From Microbacterium sp. C5A9 (GTDB taxonomy: Bacteria > Actinomycetota > Actinomycetes > Actinomycetales > Microbacteriaceae): a stretch of 64,000 nucleotides of DNA. A model generated the notes under the pieces. The model was not told the origin of the DNA, made no database searches, and saw only the letters and a program-made list of their open reading frames with translations. The stretch lies in NCBI RefSeq assembly GCF_022627955.1, contig NZ_JABXGD010000008.1:62001-126000 (forward strand), given 5' to 3'. The translations under genes and the position numbers were made by a program. This document shows, piece after piece, positions 43,788 through 48,147 of this stretch; position 1 is the stretch's first letter; each line of letters begins with the position of its first letter.

Positions 43788-44657
43788 TCAGACCATGCTC
43801 TTGGTGTGCCACACGGTCTTGATCTCGGTGAAGGCGGCGATCCGCTCGGGCGATGCCGTCACCTCACCGGGGGTCAGGACGCGCTTCAGTGTCTCGGCGG
43901 CGGCGATCTGCATGTCGACCCAGTCCAGGGCCCCCGCTCCGGCGAGGTCGAGCGCGTTCACGTCCTGGTGCGACGCGAGCCACGGCGCCATCTCGGCGGG
44001 CGATCCGGTGAGGACGTTGACCACTCCCCCGGGCACGTCGCTGGTCGCGAGCACCTCGGCGAGACTGATGGCCGACAGCGGATGACGCTCGCTCGCGATC
44101 ACGACGACGGTGTTCCCGGCGACGAGCGCGGGCGCCACCACGGAGACGAGGCCGAGCAGAGCGGAGTCCTGCGGCGCGACGATCGCGACGACTCCGGTCG
44201 GCTCCGGCACCGAGATGTTGAAGTACGGCCCGGAGACCGGGTTCGCGTTCCCCGCGACCTGCGCGTACTTGTCGCACCACCCGGCGTACCAGACCCAGAG
44301 GTCGATCGCGTCATCCACCTGAGTCGCGGCAGCGGTTGCCGACACGCCCTCCTGCGCGGAGATCTCGTCGATGAACTGCGCGCGGCGCCCCTCGAGGACC
44401 TCGGCGATGCGGTACAGCACCTGGCCGCGGTTGTAGGCGGTCGCTCCCGACCAGCCCTTCACCGCCGCGCGGGCCGCCACGACCGCATCCCGCGCATCCT
44501 TGCGGGACGCCTGCGCGGCGTTCGCGAGGAACGCGCCCTTGGCCGAGAGCACCTCGTACGTACGCCCCGATTCGCTGCGCGGAAAGGCGCCGCCGATCGC
44601 GAGCTTGTAGGTCTTCGGAACACTGAGTCGGTCATTGGCACTGTGTCGCTTGCTCAT
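43788..44657 (-). CDS. Half-length aldehyde dehydrogenase-like protein without catalytic residues
   Basis: A 289-residue protein from ATG 44657, overlapping the upstream ALDH stop by 4 nt. It aligns by eye with the NAD-binding half of ALDH: RKDARDAVVAARAAVKGWS, NRGQVLYRIAEVLEGRRAQF, EPTGVVAIVAPQDSALLGLVSVVAPALVAGNTVVVIASE. The Lys of KPAE is replaced (IASE). It ends without the LELGGK Glu region and without the GQxC Cys domain, although an intact dehydrogenase needs both. The stop is followed by a clean terminator, so this is an intended end, not a cut. It could be a regulatory or scaffolding partner of the full ALDH. Confidence 0.85.
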   Translation of the reverse strand: MSKRHSANDRLSVPKTYKLAIGGAFPRSESGRTYEVLSAKGAFLANAAQASRKDARDAVVAARAAVKGWSGATAYNRGQVLYRIAEVLEGRRAQFIDEISAQEGVSATAAATQVDDAIDLWVWYAGWCDKYAQVAGNANPVSGPYFNISVPEPTGVVAIVAPQDSALLGLVSVVAPALVAGNTVVVIASERHPLSAISLAEVLATSDVPGGVVNVLTGSPAEMAPWLASHQDVNALDLAGAGALDWVDMQIAAAETLKRVLTPGEVTASPERIAAFTEIKTVWHTKSMV

Positions 44658-46096
44658 GCTGATGCCCCCTTCAGGTAGGCGGTGAGACCCTGGCGTCCGC
44701 CTTCGCGGCCGTATCCGGACTCCTTGTATCCGCCGAACGGGCTCGACGGGTCGAATCGGTTGAACGTGTTGGCCCACACGACGCCGGCGCGGAGGCGATC
44801 GGCCACCGCGAGGATGCGCGATCCCTTGTCCGACCAGATGCCGGCGGAGAGACCGTATGGCGTGTTGTTGGCCTTGGCGATCGCCTCGGCGGGCGTGCGG
44901 AACGTCAGGACCGAGAGAACGGGTCCGAAGACCTCATCGCGGGCGATGCGATGGGAGGCCTCGACACCGGTGAAGATCGTCGGAGCGAACCAGAATCCCT
45001 TCTCGGGGATCGCGCAGTCCGCCGTCCAGCGCTCCGCGCCCTCGGCCTCGCCGATGTCGCTGAGCTCGCGGATGCGGGCCAGCTGCGCGGCCGAGTTGAT
45101 CGCACCGATGTCGGTGTTCTTGTCGAGCGGGTCGCCGAGACGCAGTGTCGACAGGCGGCTCTTGAGTCGGTCGATGACCTCGTCGTGGATCGACTCCTGC
45201 ACGAGCAGCCGACTGCCGGCGCAGCACACGTGACCCTGATTGAAGAAGATGCCGTTCACGATGCCCTCGATCGCCTGATCGATGGGCGCGTCGTCGAACA
45301 CGATGTTCGCGGCCTTGCCGCCGAGTTCGAGCGTGAGCTTCTTCCTGGTGCCGGCGACCGCGCGGGCGATGTCGCGTCCGACGCCGGTCGACCCGGTGAA
45401 GGCCACCTTGTCGACGTCCGGATGCCGCACGAGCGCGGCACCGGTCGAACCGGCTCCGGTCACGATGTTGACCACACCTGCCGGAAGGTCGGCCTGCTGC
45501 AGGATCTCCGCGAAGATCAGCGCCGTCAGCGGCGTGGTCTCGGCGGGCTTGAGCACGACGGTGTTGCCGGCGGCCAGCGCGGGAGCGAGCTTCCACGCGA
45601 GCATGAGCAGCGGGAAGTTCCACGGGATCACCTGACCCGCCACGCCGAGCGCGCGCGGGTTCGCGCCGAGCCCGGCGTAGTCGAGCTTGTCGGCCCAGCC
45701 GGCGTAGTAGAAGAACCAGGACGCGACCAGCGGCACGTCGACGTCTCGGCTCTCCTTGATCGGCTTGCCGTTGTCGAGGCTCTCGGCGACCGCGAGCTCA
45801 CGGGCGCGCTCCTGCACGAGGCGGGCGATGCGGAAGAGGTACTTGCCCCGATCGCGGCCGCTCATCGTCGACCAGGTCTTGTCGTAGGCGCGGCGCGCAG
45901 CGGCGACGGCACGGTCGACGTCCTCGTCACTCGCCGAGGCGATCTCGGCGATGCGCGTCTCGTCGGCAGGCGAGATGGTGGTGAAGCTCGCACCCGAGCC
46001 GTCGACGAACTCGCCGTCGATGAACAGGCCGTAGCTGTCCTTGAGGTTCAGGACGGCCTTCGACTCCGGTGCCGGAGCGTATTCCAGGAATGACAT
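44654..46096 (-). CDS. NAD-dependent aldehyde dehydrogenase
   Basis: A 480-residue ALDH from ATG 46096. PWNFPLLMLAWKLAPALAAGNTVVLKPAE near 160-188 binds cofactor (Lys in KPAE), FTGSTGVG near 235-242, catalytic Glu in LELGGK near 258-263, catalytic Cys in NQGHVCCAGSR near 293-297, and EVFGPVLSV near 390. Given deoC 11 nt upstream, acetaldehyde released by DERA is a plausible substrate (inference). Confidence 0.95.
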   Translation of the reverse strand: MSFLEYAPAPESKAVLNLKDSYGLFIDGEFVDGSGASFTTISPADETRIAEIASASDEDVDRAVAAARRAYDKTWSTMSGRDRGKYLFRIARLVQERARELAVAESLDNGKPIKESRDVDVPLVASWFFYYAGWADKLDYAGLGANPRALGVAGQVIPWNFPLLMLAWKLAPALAAGNTVVLKPAETTPLTALIFAEILQQADLPAGVVNIVTGAGSTGAALVRHPDVDKVAFTGSTGVGRDIARAVAGTRKKLTLELGGKAANIVFDDAPIDQAIEGIVNGIFFNQGHVCCAGSRLLVQESIHDEVIDRLKSRLSTLRLGDPLDKNTDIGAINSAAQLARIRELSDIGEAEGAERWTADCAIPEKGFWFAPTIFTGVEASHRIARDEVFGPVLSVLTFRTPAEAIAKANNTPYGLSAGIWSDKGSRILAVADRLRAGVVWANTFNRFDPSSPFGGYKESGYGREGGRQGLTAYLKGASA

Positions 46097-46107: not shown

Positions 46108-47109
46108 CTAGTCGATCGTGACGTAGTCGGGGCCGGAGTAGTGGCCGGTGGTGAGCTTCTGACGCTGCAGCAGCACGTCGTTCAGGAGGCTCGACGCGCC
46201 GAAGCGGAAGAGGTGCGGCTGGAGCCACTCCTCGCCCACCGTCTCGGCGACCGTGACGAGGTACTTCACGGCATCCTTCGACGAGCGGATGCCGCCGGCC
46301 GGCTTCACGCCGATGCGCTGCCCCGTGCCACGGTGCCAGTCGCGCACCGTCTCGAGCATGAGCAGGGTGGTCGGCAGCGTCGCCGCCGGCTGCACCTTGC
46401 CCGTCGAGGTCTTGATGAAGTCGCCGCCGGCGAGGATGCCGAGCCACGAGGCACGCTTGATGTTGTCGTATGTGTTCAGCTCGCCGGTCTCGAGGATGAC
46501 CTTGAGCGAGGCGTAGGAGCCGTCGGCTCGGCGGCAGGCTTCCTTGACCTGGGCGATCTGATCGAAGACCAGGCCATAGCGTCCGGAGAGGAAGGCACCT
46601 CGGTCGATCACCATGTCGATCTCGTCGGCACCGGCGGCCACGGCCTCGGCGGTGTCGGCGAGCTTGATCGCCAGAGACGAGCGCCCGCTCGGGAACGCGG
46701 TCGCCACCGCGGCGACGGAGATGAGCCCGTCATCGGGATCGCCGTGCAGGCCGCCGAGCGCCTCGACCGCATCGCCGACCATGTCGCCGTAGACGCAGAC
46801 GGCGGCGACCTTCGGGGTCGACGGGTCGGCGGCATCGGGGTTCTTCGCCTTCGCGACGAGAGACCGCACCTTGCCCGGCGTATCCGAGCCCTCGAGCGTC
46901 GTGAGGTCGATCAGCCTGATGATCGTGTCGAGGGCCCAGGCCTTCGACGTCGTCTTGATCGATCGCGTGCCGAGGCCGGCAGCACGCTGCTCGAGCCCGA
47001 CGGCGTCGACTCCGGGAAGGCCATGCAGGAAGCGGCGGAGTGTGGCGTCGTCCGGCTCACCGCCGAGGACCTCCACCGCCGATCTGCGGCTGAGTTCTTG
47101 GGTCGTCAT
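46108..47109 (-). CDS. deoC: Deoxyribose-phosphate aldolase
   Basis: A 333-residue DERA, longer than the E. coli-type (259) because of an N-terminal extension, as in animal and many actinobacterial forms. IDLTTLEGSDT near 77-87, FPSGRS near 155, the Schiff-base Lys in FIKTSTGK near 258, and the second Lys in GVKPAGGIR near 288. It splits deoxyribose-5-phosphate into acetaldehyde and glyceraldehyde-3-phosphate. Start overlaps the sorC stop by 4 nt. Confidence 0.95.
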   Translation of the reverse strand: MTTQELSRRSAVEVLGGEPDDATLRRFLHGLPGVDAVGLEQRAAGLGTRSIKTTSKAWALDTIIRLIDLTTLEGSDTPGKVRSLVAKAKNPDAADPSTPKVAAVCVYGDMVGDAVEALGGLHGDPDDGLISVAAVATAFPSGRSSLAIKLADTAEAVAAGADEIDMVIDRGAFLSGRYGLVFDQIAQVKEACRRADGSYASLKVILETGELNTYDNIKRASWLGILAGGDFIKTSTGKVQPAATLPTTLLMLETVRDWHRGTGQRIGVKPAGGIRSSKDAVKYLVTVAETVGEEWLQPHLFRFGASSLLNDVLLQRQKLTTGHYSGPDYVTID

Positions 47110-48041
47110 CGTTCCTCCAACAATGCTCGTGCTGTGTTCTCATCTGTCACCAGGACGCTGCACAGGCCGCTTGTCACGACTGTACGCGCGATGTCATGTT
47201 TGGCGTCACCGGCGGTGACGAAGACCGCTCGGCTCGCTCCGCGAAGGCGGCCGAGGTCGACGCCGACCGTGCGCGCGTCGAGCTGCGGGTCGACGATGTT
47301 GCCGTCCGCGTCGATGTATCGACCGAGCACGTCGCCCACGGCTCCGCGCCGCGACAGCTCCTCGACATCGGATGCCGACAGGTAGCCGTTCTCGACGTGG
47401 GCCGAGCTCGCGTCGCACGGGCCCGCCGTGAACAGGAACGCCTGCGCCTCCGCGGCCTCTTCGAGCACGGCCGCGACGGTGCGGTCGGCCTCGATGGCCT
47501 GCTTGGTCTCGACGCGTTCGAGGATGGCGGGGCTGGGCAGCAGCGAGACCTGACCCGAGGCCCGCTGTGCGATCGTGACGGCGAGTCCGGCTGCGCCGCC
47601 CGACCTGCGATTGAGGCTCACTCCCCCGTTGAGCTGCACGACGGTGACTCCGGTCGCCCACCCGTCGGGGAGCGCCTCGGCGACGGCGCGCAGCGTGCGA
47701 CCCCAGCTCACCCCGAGCGTGCGCGGCACCGGCCGCATGGCCGTGAGGTAGTCGGCGGCCGCCTGTGCGACGCGCTCGAGTGTTCCGTCGTCACCCTCGG
47801 GGGCGGGAACGACCACCGCGGCCGAGAGACCGTGTCGATCGACGAGTTCGCGCTCGAGTCCCAGCCGACGCGCACGCGGGTGGATGATCTCGATCCTGAC
47901 GATGCCGCGCTCGCGCGCCTGGATGAGCAGGCGCCCGACCTTCCAACGGGAGAGGCCCAGGAGCGCTCCGATCTCGTCCTGCGTCTTCTCCTCGTCGTAG
48001 TACAACTCGGCGACGCGGACCATCGTCAGCTCGTCATCCAC
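47106..48041 (-). CDS. SorC/DeoR-type sugar-binding transcriptional regulator
   Basis: A 311-residue regulator from GTG 48041, with GAGGAGGA upstream. The N-terminal helix-turn-helix is KTQDEIGALLGLSRWKVGRLLIQARERG at about 19-46. The SorC effector domain follows, with LGVSWGRTLRAVAEAL near 110-125, and VVQLNGGVS near 135. Phosphorylated sugars are usual inducers; deoxyribose-5-phosphate would fit here. It is the first gene in the deoC cassette and probably controls it. Confidence 0.92.
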   Translation of the reverse strand: MDDELTMVRVAELYYDEEKTQDEIGALLGLSRWKVGRLLIQARERGIVRIEIIHPRARRLGLERELVDRHGLSAAVVVPAPEGDDGTLERVAQAAADYLTAMRPVPRTLGVSWGRTLRAVAEALPDGWATGVTVVQLNGGVSLNRRSGGAAGLAVTIAQRASGQVSLLPSPAILERVETKQAIEADRTVAAVLEEAAEAQAFLFTAGPCDASSAHVENGYLSASDVEELSRRGAVGDVLGRYIDADGNIVDPQLDARTVGVDLGRLRGASRAVFVTAGDAKHDIARTVVTSGLCSVLVTDENTARALLEER

Positions 48042-48094
48042 AGCATCCTCCTCGTTCTCCAGAGTACGCGCGCAACGGATTTCGCGCATCCGCG

Positions 48095-48114
48095 TGCTCA
48101 TATGAGCAATAGTA
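48095..48114 (-). promoter_or_regulatory. Promoter and candidate operator of the sorC-deoC cassette
   Basis: TACTAT (-10, minus, 48109-48114), directly followed by the 14-bp perfect palindrome TGCTCATATGAGCA (48095-48108), which covers the expected transcript start. A SorC-type autoregulatory site is the simplest reading. Confidence 0.6.
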
Positions 48115-48147
48115 CGAGGTGATCCGCACATCTGCCGGAATGACGAA

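Follow-up and report, generated by a model that had tools for sequence, protein, structure and literature searches.

Two adjacent genes in the window (64,000 nucleotides of Microbacterium sp. C5A9, contig NZ_JABXGD010000008.1, positions 62,001 to 126,000), here named aldh16A and aldh16B, very likely constitute a split form of the aldehyde dehydrogenase ALDH16, in which an active subunit, ALDH16A, would be bound by a non-catalytic subunit, ALDH16B, in an A2B2 particle resembling the ALDH tetramer, and which would oxidise acetaldehyde as part of a deoC operon. The two proteins are homologous to the two parts of ALDH16, and the genes are conserved, keep their order and occur together; the cofactor and catalytic residues are lost in ALDH16B and kept in ALDH16A. 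The role of ALDH16A is suggested by its residues and the place of its gene, and that of ALDH16B by homology and anatomy; from these we infer the physical AB complex, its A2B2 stoichiometry, the effect of ALDH16B on ALDH16A, and the substrate.

Gene layout and residues of the two proteins

The genes and the hairpin that follows them are listed in Table 1. DeoC releases acetaldehyde from deoxyribose 5-phosphate; the order regulator-deoC-aldh16A-aldh16B would accordingly describe an operon for cleavage of this sugar phosphate, followed by oxidation of the acetaldehyde released. The immediate neighbours are the regulator, deoC, and a gene read by eye as clpX; no shell gene was noticed in this neighbourhood. 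The coupling of the short gene to a complete ALDH gene, claimed in an earlier note on this DNA, agrees with the ATGA overlap at the junction of the two genes. The strong terminator claimed in the same note was borne out in part: the hairpin after aldh16B is perfect, with a folding energy of -43.9 kcal/mol vs a shuffle mean of -24.2 (z -6.1), but it has no T run and the terminator scan contains no entry for it, and a strong terminator at this position is likely, not certain.

Table 1. Positions in the window of the proposed split ALDH16 genes and associated features
Feature	Position	Strand	Description
aldh16B (name coined here)	43788-44657	-	289 aa, ATG start, intact ORF; non-catalytic ALDH subunit made up of the NAD-binding half and the C-terminal strand
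aldh16A (name coined here)	44654-46096	-	complete ALDH, 480 aa from its ATG
ATGA overlap, aldh16A stop/aldh16B start	44654-44657	-	4 bases
deoC, deoxyribose-phosphate aldolase (acetaldehyde source)	46108-47109	-	
regulator-like gene, sugar-binding domain (Pfam Sugar-bind)	47106-48131	-	presumed operon start
hairpin, 17 bp, perfect	43775-43739	-	after aldh16B stop codon; presumed operon end

The match of ALDH16B to the Pfam Aldedh profile is limited to positions 7-232 of 461, and the part that bears Glu268 and Cys302 is therefore absent. As stated in the earlier note, the cofactor-binding Lys is lost as well, the KPAE motif being replaced by IASE in the window. The Lys192 column contains Lys in none of 164 ALDH16B proteins, in all 157 ALDH16A proteins, and in all 13 ordinary ALDHs compared from the window's genome (counts on ALDH16B exclude L198, L210, and L160 of genome G149, which has no closed frame within its stretch); with this column never occupied by Lys and the catalytic domain missing, ALDH16B is not catalytically competent. 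The FTGS motif was found in 0/163 ALDH16B proteins, and ALDH16A retains Lys, Cys, Glu268 and FTGS, each in 157/157. Both Cys and Glu are also present in 14/14 proteins in which the two parts are fused. In these natural fusions a complete ALDH precedes the short part, which gains no catalytic domain of its own; neither catalytic residues in the short protein nor, in relatives, a frameshift that restores a full ALDH, either of which would have spoken against the proposal of the earlier note, was encountered.

The final residues of ALDH16B, FTEIKTVWH, are similar to the C-terminal strand found in complete ALDHs, which indicates that the catalytic domain is missing from inside the protein and was not removed by an early stop. 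The description of a protein that ends before the catalytic residues is thus correct as to the absent Glu/Cys part, but the retained strand shows that there is no simple early end. The sequence T[VIALM]WH occurs within the last 40 residues of 164/164 ALDH16B proteins. The pattern for the C-terminal strand, which was chosen by eye after the sequences had been seen, is matched in 0/157 ALDH16A proteins vs 10 of the 13 ordinary ALDHs; the same loose pattern is matched at the ends of domain 1 in 7 of the 14 fused proteins, and strand loss is therefore no rule of the whole family. A complementary loss of the strand in ALDH16A is evident in the split form alone. An ordinary truncated ALDH was considered and rejected, since ALDH16B keeps the C-terminal strand and groups with ALDH16 C-terminal domains in the tree.

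In an alignment of 41 ALDH16B proteins, in which some residues are invariant, the commonest residue has a mean share of 0.87 in residues 15-36, 0.86 in the hairpin (139-157) and 0.81 in the C-terminal strand (276-285), three segments that make subunit contacts in the general topology of ALDHs; around the former Lys loop the share is 0.65, and over the whole protein 0.69. Residues 121-130 (0.89) and 203-218 (0.90) are equally conserved, and conservation is thus not confined to the contact segments.

A predicted structure of ALDH16B is of moderate quality (pLDDT 74.6, with residues 1-48 and 138-145 below 50). Residues 13-289 of the model align with whole ALDH chains, for example residues 11-490 of 6x9l (262/485 residues aligned), a coverage that allows for a skipped catalytic domain; they also align with residues 493-765 of 6mvs. 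The structural comparison does not set ALDH16 apart: an ordinary ALDH ranks first (Z 29.5), and many others score level with 6mvu (29.1) and 6mvs (29.0).

Correspondence with ALDH16 and natural fusions

The best sequence match of ALDH16B in the PDB is residues 499-762 of 6mvr/6mvu (E 3.3e-56; next molecule 5.5e-32), with 37% identity to 6mvu over 236 aligned residues, and that of ALDH16A is residues 10-478 of 6mvr (E 2.5e-163, 547 bits; next molecule 1.6e-125, 423 bits). Taken in order, the two adjacent genes therefore correspond to both parts of a single ALDH16 chain. Among the best 25 NCBIfam models listed, none reached its cut-off for either ALDH16A or ALDH16B. The ALDH16 of Loktanella is described in PMC8160307 as an ALDH with a non-functional C-terminal Rossmann domain, two subunits of which mimic the usual tetramer. 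The proteins studied here share with the bacterial ALDH16 structures (6mvr, 6mvs, 6mvt, 6mvu) a working catalytic part together with another Rossmann domain that is non-functional and terminates in a K-T-[IV]-W strand; they differ in that the structures contain a single chain, whereas two genes are found here. The catalytic part is closest to ALDH16 and carries the catalytic Cys and Glu of bacterial members, and a second non-catalytic, Rossmann-type ALDH domain is present. Nevertheless, each part has its own gene both in the window and in 77/77 judgeable loci of our Actinomycetota survey, in none of which a fused A-B gene was detected; the pair is therefore a two-gene variant of ALDH16 and not a standard member. 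Human ALDH16A1 is described in reviews as the ALDH16 of humans, having an additional domain and protein-binding roles; by these descriptions its first part is catalytically dead, whereas ALDH16A keeps Lys, Glu and Cys.

Fused forms, which come from plasmid records only, were found in a sample of 17 records examined out of 156 with a match. Fourteen of these records contain a fused gene; all are from Proteobacteria, and each has deoC just upstream (two of them, L194 and L206, are both from S. meliloti). The remaining three are a split pair in Nonomuraea (L196), a locus cut at the start of its record (L198), and an ordinary ALDH (L210). The fused protein behind deoC in Nitratireductor aligns with 6mvr end to end (E 2.7e-293).

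A tree was constructed from 77 NAD-binding halves, comprising 20 from ALDH16A, 20 from ALDH16B, 12 + 12 from the two halves of fused proteins, and 13 from ordinary ALDHs; the fused loci L206 and L208 and three other ALDH-like proteins of the window's genome (L223-L225) were omitted. ALDH16B and the C-terminal domains of the fused proteins form one group (100/100), within a topology in which ALDH16B, the fused C-terminal halves and the fused N-terminal halves each form their own group with a bootstrap of 100; the ALDH16A group is weak (63/76), the root is a midpoint root, and the ordinary ALDHs are all from a single genome. These 13 ordinary ALDHs share the common family in the NAD-binding half; they differ from ALDH16B in being separate in the tree and in retaining the catalytic domain and Lys192.

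Distribution, linkage and selection

A sample of 396 genomes from the window's phylum, including the window's genome, was surveyed. The matches to the short gene fall into two clearly distinct classes: 84 genomes match at E <1e-74, and no further match follows until E 1.8e-33, the level at which ordinary ALDHs set in. The partner ALDH16A was detected at E <= 1e-190 in 78 genomes, and the short gene is present in 78/78 of them. Six genomes have ALDH16B alone; in five a contig end lies just upstream, and in G117 the partner scores lower. The pseudoenzyme partner proposed in the earlier note thus appears to be supported, as judged from sequence, both by this co-occurrence and by the natural fusions of Proteobacteria. 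In the 84 survey loci, aldh16A lies <=250 nt upstream of aldh16B in 73 and 0.6-2.1 kb away in four, and seven are cut by a contig end. The short form does recur beside deoC in other genomes: of the 77 survey loci that have aldh16A, 76 carry deoC in the same orientation, within 250 nt in 67 and farther in nine, and one locus is without deoC in the stretch examined. Among 80 loci from named genomes, which are by title mostly Microbacterium, Leifsonia, Cryobacterium, Agromyces and Cellulomonas, the two genes are separate and lie next to each other in 79, the last locus being cut, and deoC lies within 250 nt in 78; the closest named matches, with 92-94% identity, bear the name Microbacterium.

The claim that the short gene is a maintained product and not a decay remnant is upheld by its occurrence in 84/396 genomes and by its selection: dN/dS is 0.056-0.095 in comparisons with ten relatives from Microbacterium, taken from among the 80 named loci. 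Neither relaxed selection nor frame breaks typical of a pseudogene were observed, one internal stop (G149) being present in 84 survey hits, and a pseudogene was rejected on the basis of the dN/dS values. It is hardly credible that the short gene is a decaying duplicate of an ALDH gene: the missing catalytic domain and the G149 stop would fit such a duplicate, but purifying selection in all ten comparisons and the invariant residues of the 41 aligned proteins argue against it.

The exact 4-base overlap at the A-B junction is found in 101 of 157 pairs under a nearest-start rule, which favours short distances, so that this count is an upper view; the remaining junctions differ. A programmed frameshift at the overlap, producing a fused ALDH16 with ALDH16B alone as a minor product, would be compatible with the overlapping frames in the window and with the GGGGG run before the stop, but this variation of the junction, the four loci with the genes 0.6-2.1 kb apart, and the variable sequence and length of the ALDH16A ends make it very improbable.

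ALDH16B could alternatively serve as a separate scaffold or regulator that forms no fixed complex with ALDH16A and, for example, ties ALDH16A to DeoC for acetaldehyde transfer. The same-strand linkage to deoC is consistent with such a role, as are the several best-conserved stretches of ALDH16B that lie away from the old cofactor site and the description of human ALDH16A1, in PMC10650815, as a protein-binding pseudoenzyme. The natural fusions, however, join the ALDH16B domain to the catalytic part and not to DeoC, and PMC8160307 describes the domain as belonging to the ALDH16 assembly. The distance correlation between ALDH16A and ALDH16B over 75 genomes, a descriptive value for which no significance is claimed, is 0.81, or 0.58 given deoC, and the partial correlations are 0.46 for A-deoC and 0.26 for B-deoC given A, the weakest of the three. 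Taken with this evidence, a free-standing scaffold has a slim chance of being correct, and a fixed partnership with ALDH16A is the reading that we prefer.

Several minor features of these loci were noted. By eye, other genes lie inside at least two of the four wide A-B gaps; the ORFs between aldh16A and aldh16B in L113, L184 and L189 are, by eye, metallophosphatase-like, PIN-domain-like (on the other strand) and sigma-factor-like. Among 156 ALDH16A proteins with a GREG motif, 51 extend 29-82 residues from the motif (47 of them in named loci), and the extended tails (e.g., L039, L043, L053, L065 and L074) are often of Lys/Ala-rich low complexity. The record 'Planococcus sp. APC 4015' (L055) contains an aldh16B 80% identical to that of the window, and is perhaps a misnamed or contaminated assembly.

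Proposed assembly, novelty and substrate

In the preferred reading, ALDH16A would be an active NAD-dependent aldehyde dehydrogenase that oxidises its aldehyde with NAD, and ALDH16B would be the C-terminal pseudo-domain of ALDH16 in the form of a separate subunit. ALDH16B may bind ALDH16A as one ALDH subunit binds its dimer mate, contributing an oligomerisation hairpin as well as the C-terminal strand missing from ALDH16A, with no active site of its own. Two AB pairs would then join in an A2B2 particle, with ALDH16B in place of the second ALDH subunit, and this particle probably mimics the ALDH tetramer. A more elaborate arrangement of live and dead subunits, in which ALDH16B is required by ALDH16A, supplies the lost strand and dimer face and in addition binds DeoC, with acetaldehyde passed on unreleased and output set by the amount of ALDH16B, seems to us rather unlikely.

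The aldehyde-retaining shell raised as another option in the earlier note found no support, and a microcompartment shell protein was rejected, since the sole Pfam match of the short protein at E <= 0.001 is Aldedh. The expectation of that note that the partner would be new must be qualified: the domain is already known as the C-terminal domain of ALDH16, and it is its existence as a separate gene that appears to be new. No report of a split ALDH16 was found in the full-text literature searched, which lacked the primary structure paper (Liu and Tanner 2019). The question of what the additional domain does in ALDH16 extends to human ALDH16A1, which is described in reviews (e.g., PMC10650815) as a pseudoenzyme linked to gout. 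This domain is hard to remove cleanly from a single chain and has here been separated by nature; ALDH16A and ALDH16B can be expressed apart and mixed, which would show directly if folding, assembly, activity or partner binding depends on the dead domain.

The linkage to deoC in both split and fused loci points to acetaldehyde from deoxyribose breakdown as a physiological substrate of bacterial ALDH16. Pairs of DeoC and ALDH are also found in microcompartment loci, where, according to PMC4207490, an ALDH beside a DeoC-type aldolase is similarly thought to use acetaldehyde; that ALDH, in contrast, possibly forms acetyl-CoA and lies inside a shell. Fused ALDH16 genes lie behind deoC in the proteobacterial loci L195 and L199-L204, several of which also contain RbsD/FucU, ribokinase, aldose epimerase or sugar ABC transporter genes, neighbours pointing to sugar uptake and breakdown.
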